64,000 nucleotides of DNA from an uncultured Poribacteria bacterium (GTDB lineage: Bacteria > Poribacteria > WGA-4E > PCPOR2b), in the NCBI GenBank assembly GCA_958296125.1, contig OY282444.1:2227940-2291939 (forward strand). Direction: 5' to 3'. Shown here one piece after another: positions 18,711-23,996 of this stretch. The notes below the pieces were generated by a model. It made no database searches and was not told where the DNA came from. It was given only the letters and a program-made list of their open reading frames with translations. The translations under genes were made by a program, and so were the position numbers. Position 1 is the stretch's first letter. Each line of letters begins with the position of its first letter.

Positions 18711-18903
18711 CCGTTCACTTCGTTGTATCTGCTAAACGCTTCAGGGGAGTTGAGGCAAGTATAACACATTTATACGGATATATCCAGAGAAAACTACACG
18801 GTTTGACCCAATGTTGTCCGTTCCAGCCTGCCTGGTCTCGGCACGGACTCCCGATCTATCGGGGACAGGCAGGAAAATATTGGGCTTGTGCGAATTACTG
18901 TCA
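18516..18903 (-). mobile_element. tnpB-less IS605 derivative (MITE/PATE)
   Basis: 388 bp sharing both ends with the full element at 57828-59300. The right end has TTGACTGCTCCCAA with its hairpin (18525-18544), and the left end has TGACAGTAATTCGCACAAGC on the minus strand. Between them remain the last ~24 codons of tnpB (VAEGHSETLNACCFESRF, then IGVEIL and stop) and unrelated filler. The transposase and most of tnpB are deleted, so movement would need proteins in trans. Confidence 0.8.
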
Positions 18904-19050
18904 TAAAGCAGATGCTAACCGATGAGTATCAGGCTGTCGGAGATATTCTACCGTTCGGTTGTAGACATATCTCGCACACCCTAACCATTGCCTAAGTTTT
19001 GCACGTTGCTTTGAGTCAGGATAGACTCGAATCTTCTTTGATTTGGTCAC
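18901..19050 (-). pseudogene. IS607-type tnpB, N-terminal fragment
   Basis: From GTG 19050, overlapping the end of the serine recombinase gene, reads VTKSKKIRVYPDSKQRAKLR, then GCARYVYNRTVEYLRQPDTH. This is the N-terminus of an IS607-associated TnpB. It stops at a TGA supplied by the left end of the MITE. The remaining ~350 residues are not found on the far side. Confidence 0.75.
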
Positions 19051-19591
19051 AGTATTTGCGGAGTCCGTGCATTTGGCAACTGAAGACATGCAAGATAGCG
19101 AGTAAATCTTGGGTGAGCTCGGATTCGGGGCTGTTGCTTTTATTGTCAAGAACTACGAGCTCGCCACCGTTTTGCTCGACAAAGTATTGTATGATTTCAA
19201 TGCCGAATCGGGCGAGTCTATCCCTATCGGCAACCACAACTTGGAGCTTATCGCCTCGATGAAGGCGGTCCAGTAAGGTTTGAAGCCCTTTGCGTTTGAA
19301 GTTGAGCCCGCTTCCGATGTCGCGGACGATTTCTGCGTCGGGGTAAATACTTCGCAGGTAGGCGACTTGACGCTCAAGGGCGGCGCGTTGCTTGGGGCTG
19401 GAGACACGACAGTAGCAAACGGTGGTAAGAGTTGATTCGGATTTGCCTTCAATAAATGCTTGGACATTATATCTTCGTTGACCTCCCTTAGTGCGAATAT
19501 AATCAATCTTACCGGCTGTTGCCAACCGTCTCAAGTGGTCTGGCGTGTAGTCCAGCAATGCACTTGCTTTTTTCGCTGATACGTAAGCCAC
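19016..19591 (-). CDS. tnpA: IS607-family serine recombinase (TnpA)
   Basis: 191 residues. A MerR-like HTH (residues 1-50, KKASALLDYTPDHLRRLA) precedes a serine-recombinase domain with the nucleophile Ser in YCRVSSPKQRAALERQV, then GLQTLLDRLHRGD and VVADRDRLARFG. It ends SCQMHGLRKYCDQIKED, as in full-length IS607 transposases, so it appears complete. I chose GTG 19591: a consensus promoter places the transcript start almost on it, implying a leaderless mRNA. The tnpB partner is truncated. Confidence 0.85.
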   Translation of the reverse strand: MAYVSAKKASALLDYTPDHLRRLATAGKIDYIRTKGGQRRYNVQAFIEGKSESTLTTVCYCRVSSPKQRAALERQVAYLRSIYPDAEIVRDIGSGLNFKRKGLQTLLDRLHRGDKLQVVVADRDRLARFGIEIIQYFVEQNGGELVVLDNKSNSPESELTQDLLAILHVFSCQMHGLRKYCDQIKEDSSLS

Positions 19592-19597
19592 ATTGGA

Positions 19598-19626
19598 ATT
19601 ATACCACAAACATGCGGATATATCAA
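19598..19626 (-). promoter_or_regulatory. Sigma-70 promoter of IS607 tnpA
   Basis: Minus strand TTGATA (19626-19621), 17-bp spacer, TATAAT (19603-19598). The -10 box ends only 6 bp before the GTG start. Confidence 0.65.
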
Positions 19627-19801
19627 GAGATATCAAGAGAAAATGTTACTGTTAATCAACCTTAACTCCGCATCACATGTAAATGTAAATTTGTGAATTG
19701 GAATATTTGTAATCACTTCGGAAATTTACACTGTAGTAAAACTGATTTAGATTACCTCCGACGCGACGCATAAGCCCTACACAATCAGCATCTTCGCCTC
19801 A

Positions 19802-21788: not shown

Positions 21789-22652
21789 TTACCCAACTGA
21801 GTCCCAAAGCTTTGTCAGATATTCACGACTCCTTTGCAATACAGCGATACGCTCCTCGTCCGGAACATTTTCGCAGTTAATCAGATGGACGCGGGCTCCC
21901 GTATTCCGTTTGAACGCCTTGATGTACAGTTCAAATGGACTGTGTCCGGTCCCCAACTCAATCGACCACATTGGGCGTGGACGCTCTTTTGCCAGACTAT
22001 GGTCTTTCCAACCCACAACCGGTATCCGATTGGGATATTCATCGACAAGCAACCACCCGTAACCCTCTGCGCTAGTCATGTGCCCGATATTGAGAATAAT
22101 GCCGGCGTTCTCGCACGGCATGGAGTCGAGGAGTAGGCGACAATCGTCCAACCCCTCCACCCACGCGGTATGGTGAATATCAACCCCAATCCAAAGCCCC
22201 CTGTCCATAAAGGTTTCTGCTACCGTGTTCATGCAGGTAGCAAGCCGTTTGATTTCCGTCGCTTTTTCTGCCGTAGGCACCTTAGACCTGCCACAGCTTG
22301 GAACGGGGTGCGTTAAGTATTTGCACTCCAGTGCCAATGCGTAAGCCGCATACTCCTTTAAGGCCGTAATTGTCGGTTCGATTCCCGCATCGCTGTCGAT
22401 ATCGATGTCACCGGAAAAATGGAGTGCGCCAATCTCTAACCCGGCGTTACGTATCGCTTTGCGAACATGCTCAGGGTCAGAATCAAGGACGTTGGGAAAC
22501 GGGCTCTGACTCGTGCCTTCTGCACTGACCGATTCCGCTACCCGACTCGTTAACAACAAGATGAAATCGAAACCGAGTCCCTTAATCGCTGCTAACGTTT
22601 TTTCAAACGACATGTGAGGTCCGACCGCGTGGGTCACAACGCCAAATTTCAT
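21789..22652 (-). CDS. Sugar phosphate isomerase/epimerase-like TIM barrel
   Basis: 287 residues of the xylose-isomerase-like (AP endonuclease 2) superfamily. It begins MKFGVVTHAVGPHMSFEKTL and has typical strand-end metal ligand positions: GVDIHHTAW, ILNIGHM, VGWKDHS. It is first in the operon with the Gfo/Idh and AKR genes. Such trios usually oxidise, isomerise and reduce a cyclitol or sugar acid, but the exact reaction cannot be inferred. Confidence 0.88.
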   Translation of the reverse strand: MKFGVVTHAVGPHMSFEKTLAAIKGLGFDFILLLTSRVAESVSAEGTSQSPFPNVLDSDPEHVRKAIRNAGLEIGALHFSGDIDIDSDAGIEPTITALKEYAAYALALECKYLTHPVPSCGRSKVPTAEKATEIKRLATCMNTVAETFMDRGLWIGVDIHHTAWVEGLDDCRLLLDSMPCENAGIILNIGHMTSAEGYGWLLVDEYPNRIPVVGWKDHSLAKERPRPMWSIELGTGHSPFELYIKAFKRNTGARVHLINCENVPDEERIAVLQRSREYLTKLWDSVG

Positions 22653-22746: not shown

Positions 22747-22879
22747 TTAAGGGATCCGATGTTGATTCGCGTAGATACGAATCCAATCCGTGCTATCAAG
22801 CACTCAAATCACCCGCCCGGAGAGAAGCCTAAACTGCATCCGATCTCCGGGAACTTCTGATACTTTAGGAGGACTAACA

Positions 22880-23110
22880 ATGGAACTGCGAGTTGAATAC
22901 TGCTCTGCTTGAAACTACCTGCCCAGAGCCGTCAGTTTGACGGACGATTTGTTGAGCAAATACAAAACAGATGTTAAAGGACTCACACTAGTCCCCAGTG
23001 GTGGGGGATGCTTTGAAGTCTCCCTGAACGGAGAACTGATCTACTCTAAGTTGCAAACAGGAGAGTACCCAACCACAGGACAGATTGTCTCTGCAATCAA
23101 TGGCAGTTAA
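22880..23110 (+). CDS. SelW/Rdx-family selenoprotein (Sec at in-frame TGA)
   Basis: 76 residues if the TGA at 22910-22912 is read as selenocysteine. The protein opens MELRVEYCSAU, giving the CxxU redox motif at residues 8-11. The thioredoxin-like SelW pattern follows: VPSGGGCFEVSLNGELIYSK and LQTGEYPTTGQIVSAI. AGGAGG lies 8 bases before the ATG, and a natural TAA ends it. The frame downstream is clean for 65 codons, which argues against a pseudogene. SelW-like proteins are small thiol/selenol oxidoreductases. No sel genes are in the window, so decoding genes must lie elsewhere. Confidence 0.88.
22910..22943 (+). promoter_or_regulatory. Bacterial SECIS-like hairpin
   Basis: Downstream of the UGA a perfect six-pair stem CCGTCA/TGACGG (22929-22934 and 22938-22943) closes a GTT loop. 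The loop G lies 22 nt after the UGA, within the spacing seen for bacterial SECIS elements, which present G-U in the apical loop to SelB. Confidence 0.7.
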
Positions 23111-23225: not shown

Positions 23226-23996
23226 TTAACTGAAATCAACGTATAGTTCTCGCATTACCCCCCGCATATCCATTTCGTATTCAATGTCCACAATCGGTGG
23301 ACGTGACGGATACCAATGGATGCCGTGCGCCTTAGCTGCGGCTAGCTTCGGAAGCACAATCTCTTCGACGAGGCCGCTGATTGCCTGCACGGTATAGATG
23401 TTAATCCGATTCACCGCATCCCAAGCACCATCCAGCCCCAAGAGGCGTTCCGCCATTACTTCGACGACATAAGCAGCCTTCTCTCGCATGGCATCTATAT
23501 CGGTTTCTCCGCGGCGAAGGATGCCTTCGGAGTTCAGGGCACCCTCCAGAAGCTCACCGGCACCTGCAATGATGAAGGTTGGTTGCGCCGCTTTATCACA
23601 AGGAAGCACATAGGAAAAACCGCAGAGCATCGGCACTTCCGGCGGCTCTACCAACGGTGCTACATTTGTGCGTGCCAACGGATTGAGTTCATCGACATAA
23701 AGGCCCCACTCTTGCAAAACTTGGCAGTACCCATGATTAAAGGCGATAAACCCCTCCATGGTGAAAGGTGCTGGACTTCGGAGTTGAATCGCACACAGGG
23801 CTGTCCGCCCTTGACCCTGTGCCTTCAAGTACGCCTCAATGTGTGTAAATCCCTCACGCCATGGGATAGGATTTTTCAGCGTTATGTTGACGATTTCGTA
23901 ACCAAGATCGGCGATGACACCGCAGGAATACGGATCGATGCCTTTGAGAAAATGGTAGTGACCTTTGGGATTATGGATAAGCACAGTTTCCTCCAT
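23226..23996 (-). CDS. Hypothetical protein, possibly RidA-superfamily-like
   Basis: 256 residues. Features include KGHYHFLKGIDPYSCGVIAD, a stretch with LCAIQLRSPAPFTMEGF, FIIAGAGELLEGALNSEG, and a helical segment VVEVMAERLLGLDGAWD followed by INIYTVQAI. The last pattern (monitoring of many-helix then strand IYTV) recalls YjgF/RidA-like proteins used with small-molecule catabolic enzymes, but the match is weak. No signal peptide. It stands alone between convergent and divergent neighbours. Confidence 0.55.
   Translation of the reverse strand: MEETVLIHNPKGHYHFLKGIDPYSCGVIADLGYEIVNITLKNPIPWREGFTHIEAYLKAQGQGRTALCAIQLRSPAPFTMEGFIAFNHGYCQVLQEWGLYVDELNPLARTNVAPLVEPPEVPMLCGFSYVLPCDKAAQPTFIIAGAGELLEGALNSEGILRRGETDIDAMREKAAYVVEVMAERLLGLDGAWDAVNRINIYTVQAISGLVEEIVLPKLAAAKAHGIHWYPSRPPIVDIEYEMDMRGVMRELYVDFS

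Follow-up and report, generated by a model that had tools for sequence, protein, structure and literature searches.

The window analysed here is a stretch of 64,000 nucleotides from an uncultured Poribacteria bacterium. It harbours a short gene on the forward strand that begins with ATG at 22880 and ends with TAA at 23108-23110, and the only stop codon within this frame is a TGA at codon 11. The following features were identified at the locus.

22867..22872, + strand: Shine-Dalgarno-like AGGAGG, 7 nt 5' of the ATG, seen in the sequence
22880..23110, + strand: predicted SelW-like (Rdx family) selenoprotein gene, 76 codons plus TAA, from read-through translation, PF10262, TIGR02174 and NF041051
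22910..22912, + strand: putative selenocysteine (Sec) codon TGA, codon 11, U of the CSAU (CxxU) redox motif, TGA in 114/114 loci and 58/58 Rdx genes
22929..22943, + strand: predicted bacterial SECIS hairpin, from folding, a stem-loop of the terminator scan, pair statistics and the bSECIS model

Reading the TGA as Sec yields a protein of 76 amino acids (MELRVEYCSAUNYLPRAVSLTDDLLSKYKTDVKGLTLVPSGGGCFEVSLNGELIYSKLQTGEYPTTGQIVSAINGS), and the residues of the CxxU motif are C8-S-A-U11. Re-reading the frame confirmed the initial annotation in its coordinates, the motif CSAU, the length of 76 codons and the break at codon 11. The ribosome-binding site that it had proposed corresponds to the AGGAGG, and the downstream frame is uninterrupted, as it had claimed. 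The gene stands alone, since its neighbours on either side (21789-22652 and 23226-23996) are encoded on the other strand. The upstream sequence showed no sigma-70 consensus promoter. A scan of the whole window listed thirteen TGA-interrupted frames with a neighbouring Cys codon, among which, by eye, only the SelW-like one resembles a selenoprotein. The other twelve were rejected, since they look by eye like ordinary genes extended by a leader, or like shadow frames. Inspection of the translations by eye also revealed an IS607-like serine recombinase frame at 19016-19636 on the reverse strand, which overlaps the start of an apparently truncated TnpB-like frame at 18901-19149 on the same strand.

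The read-through product scores 72 bits in the Pfam family Rdx (PF10262), whose cut-off is 22.6 (E=4.8e-20, profile positions 2-72 of 74), which is more than chance. The cut-off of the model TIGR02174 (CXXU_selWTH), 34.2 bits, is also exceeded, with a score of 67.4 bits (E=1e-18). This is in agreement with the assignment to SelW/Rdx selenoproteins in the initial annotation, and the TGA falls on the redox position of the family. The best-scoring curated model is NF041051 (SelTWH_Campy, E=1.4e-23); nevertheless, its cut-off was missed (82.9 versus 88 bits), and therefore the protein is not an equivalog of SelTWH_Campy. Among solved structures, the nearest relatives by sequence are the bacterial Rdx proteins Atu0228 (2fa8, the best E-value with 5e-11), SAV_2001 (3dex) and 2p0g, whose chains of 103-108 residues extend at the C-terminus beyond the matched part. 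Mammalian selenoprotein W (PDB 2npb) belongs to the same family by sequence, at a larger distance (E=8e-4).

Bacterial SelW-like (SELENOW-like) selenoproteins share with the present protein the Rdx domain, the CxxU motif and a SECIS element right after the UGA. There is no difference in kind between them, the present copy being one from Poribacteria. Such proteins are known from the Sargasso Sea (PMC1088965), and in the Global Ocean Sampling data SelW-like proteins, with 427 sequences, and SelD were the most widespread selenoproteins (PMC2398784). Few or no Cys homologues of SelW-like proteins in Sec-containing organisms were already noted in 2006 (PMC1794560), and the bacterial SELENOW-like protein is counted among those "predicted with high confidence" (PMC13188914). 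The literature search found no paper combining "Poribacteria" and "selenoprotein". The SelW-like protein is an ordinary member of a well-known family. Hence the description of the gene as hidden in the initial annotation holds insofar as the standard code breaks the frame, but not for the family itself.

The genome consists of one contig of 5,156,246 bases (5.16 Mb) and encodes the components required for Sec decoding. A tRNA-Sec with the anticodon UCA was detected with 76.6 bits, together with selA (601 bits, cut-off 268), selB (370.7 bits, cut-off 242) and selD (377 bits, cut-off 125). The genes selA, selB and tRNA-Sec adjoin in one cluster on the same strand, and selD is located away from it. 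The selD gene itself contains one internal TGA at its own redox site (TCGU). The initial annotation had implied a Sec-decoding organism and named the lack of selB or selC as an observation against its reading; the search for selA, selB, selC and selD recovered the complete set. A tRNA-Sec above the cut-off was present in 55 out of 59 related genomes, and Sec decoding is, judging from these genes, predicted to be a lineage-wide trait. SelA and SelB have been reported to co-occur in most bins of sponge symbionts from various phyla (PMC5649159).

An Rdx gene was found in 58 of the 59 related genomes searched, each time with exactly one internal TGA (58/58); no Rdx match was detected in the remaining one, G005, a 95% complete genome of the same genus. 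In a wider comparison of 114 homologous loci, some of which are duplicates of one genome present in two collections, the position corresponding to U11 is encoded by TGA throughout and never by a Cys codon. These loci span Poribacteria, Planctomycetota, Chloroflexota, Actinomycetota, Verrucomicrobiota and Bacillota. The initial annotation had held that close homologues with Cys, and a frame with further stops, would speak against a live gene; neither was found, and the downstream frame is conserved. The closest named relatives belong to Candidatus Poribacteria (91-95% identity). In the protein tree, which has few columns and many unresolved forks, the sequences of the Poribacteria order form one group, with two long-branched Verrucomicrobiota rows as the exception. 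This grouping fits a mainly vertical inheritance of the gene. A phage origin was rejected, with 0 matches among 50,697 phage records.

The predicted SECIS hairpin, CCGUCA-GUU-UGACGG, lies inside the reading frame, unlike the eukaryotic SECIS elements, which sit in the 3' UTR (PMC1088965). It starts 16 nt after the UGA and consists of a stem of 6 bp and a loop of three nucleotides with G first, then U; the terminator scan listed the same stem-loop independently. The bSECIS model describes a loop of 3-9 nt with a G in the first two positions, a stem of 4-16 bp, a distance of 16-37 nt from the UGA and a minimum free energy of at most -7.5 (PMC13188914). All of these properties were found in the hairpin, with the loop GUU, 6 bp, G first, a gap of 22 nt between UGA and loop, and -7.8 or -10.3 kcal/mol with 24 or 54 nt folded, respectively. 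Rfam SECIS_1 gave 0 matches in the genome and likewise 0 in the E. coli control, and the Rfam matches over the gene were chance matches only.

Alone, the window's own sequence is only mildly unusual, as 3.7% of its synonymous recodings fold as stably, and the case for the hairpin is therefore comparative. Among 97 distinct sequences, 86% of the cells are paired in Poribacteria and 90% in the others, compared with 9-48% when the partners are slid, and the inner pairs are almost always kept. The pair 23-31 alternates between U-A, U-G and C-G; the underlying codons encode the combinations Val-Thr, Val-Ala and Ala-Ala. Furthermore, the Ser codon spanning the loop is AGT in 44 out of 44 distinct sequences of the Poribacteria order, while all six Ser codons occur in the genes of the window. 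In one family of Poribacteria (f3), the pair 21-33 is mostly A-A; there, the core GCCA-GUU-UGGC is kept and a different lower stem folds.

Beyond the SelW-like gene, the selenoproteome was sampled by families and not by a whole-genome scan. This search revealed at least six further genes with a TGA at a redox site, of which one is formate-dehydrogenase-like and five are peroxiredoxin-like, on the following positions of the contig.

4974459-4975727, - strand: formate-dehydrogenase-like molybdopterin protein, TGA at the canonical Sec position (NCSRAUHAPTVAGL)
4919124, 1188175, 4811284 and 3735730: four peroxiredoxin-like genes (L134, L135, L136 and L137) with UPxx, TGA at the redox site
3702845-3703666, - strand: one frame with two tandem AhpC/TSA (peroxiredoxin) domains, TGA in each

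The motifs of L134 to L137 are UPFC, UPNS, UPHC and UPKD, so that two of these genes possess UxxC and two lack the second Cys. Both domains of the tandem frame carry FTGGUTAE with TGA at U, and stable hairpins follow both TGA codons; this frame is predicted to encode a fused peroxiredoxin with two Sec residues. An AhpD-like (CMD) match was also observed at 3747848-3747997 on the forward strand, with CRYU (CxxU by TGA) and a TAG inside the match, which may be either a short gene or a broken gene.

Taken at face value, the standard code terminates the frame at codon 11, as would be expected if the TGA were a true stop or a recent nonsense mutation, with a Cys-type Rdx gene decayed to a pseudogene. 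However, nonsense mutations would not hit the redox codon anew in each lineage, and the invariant TGA across phyla, the missing Cys form and the conserved downstream frame make this reading highly improbable. The several genes open across TGA could also reflect a genome-wide reassignment of the codon, for example to Trp or Gly. Nonetheless, the genome has prfB (508 bits), which encodes the release factor that reads TGA, and the standard code yields full-length products for the remaining genes of the window. Moreover, selD and three of the peroxiredoxin-like genes each carry a single TGA within the gene, at the redox site, and terminate in another, and the Rdx homologues L115 and L117 likewise use TGA internally and terminally. 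TGA is thus both sense and stop within single genes, which excludes a reassignment and leaves it a vanishingly small probability.

The genome record estimates 3.93% contamination, and the gene or the Sec genes could in principle derive from another organism. Nevertheless, the assembly is a single contig, near-identical SelW genes occur in genomes of the same genus, and the protein tree places the SelW-like protein with its own genus and order, so that the probability of a foreign source is negligible. The gene is almost certainly functional and encodes, as far as sequence comparison can tell, a bacterial SelW-like selenoprotein in which UGA codon 11 is decoded as Sec. SelA would make Sec-tRNA from selenophosphate supplied by SelD, and SelB and tRNA-Sec of the cell, whose genes are present, would decode the UGA, guided by the SECIS hairpin downstream. 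By analogy with the family, the protein is most likely a thiol/selenol oxidoreductase whose CxxU motif alternates between a selenenylsulfide and the reduced form.

The SelW-like gene would be missed or cut short if the genome were annotated with the standard code. The present data document Sec genetics across an uncultured candidate phylum and add a well-sampled set of SelW SECIS hairpins, and the picture of bacterial selenoproteins is unchanged. We give an even chance to the proposal that the SelW of Poribacteria depends obligately on Sec, without any Cys form, and belongs to a lineage-wide selenoproteome rich in Sec peroxiredoxins, among them the tandem-domain protein with two Sec sites. Even if it is true, SelW itself stays an ordinary member of its family; a steady supply of selenium in the habitat of these bacteria would then be implied.
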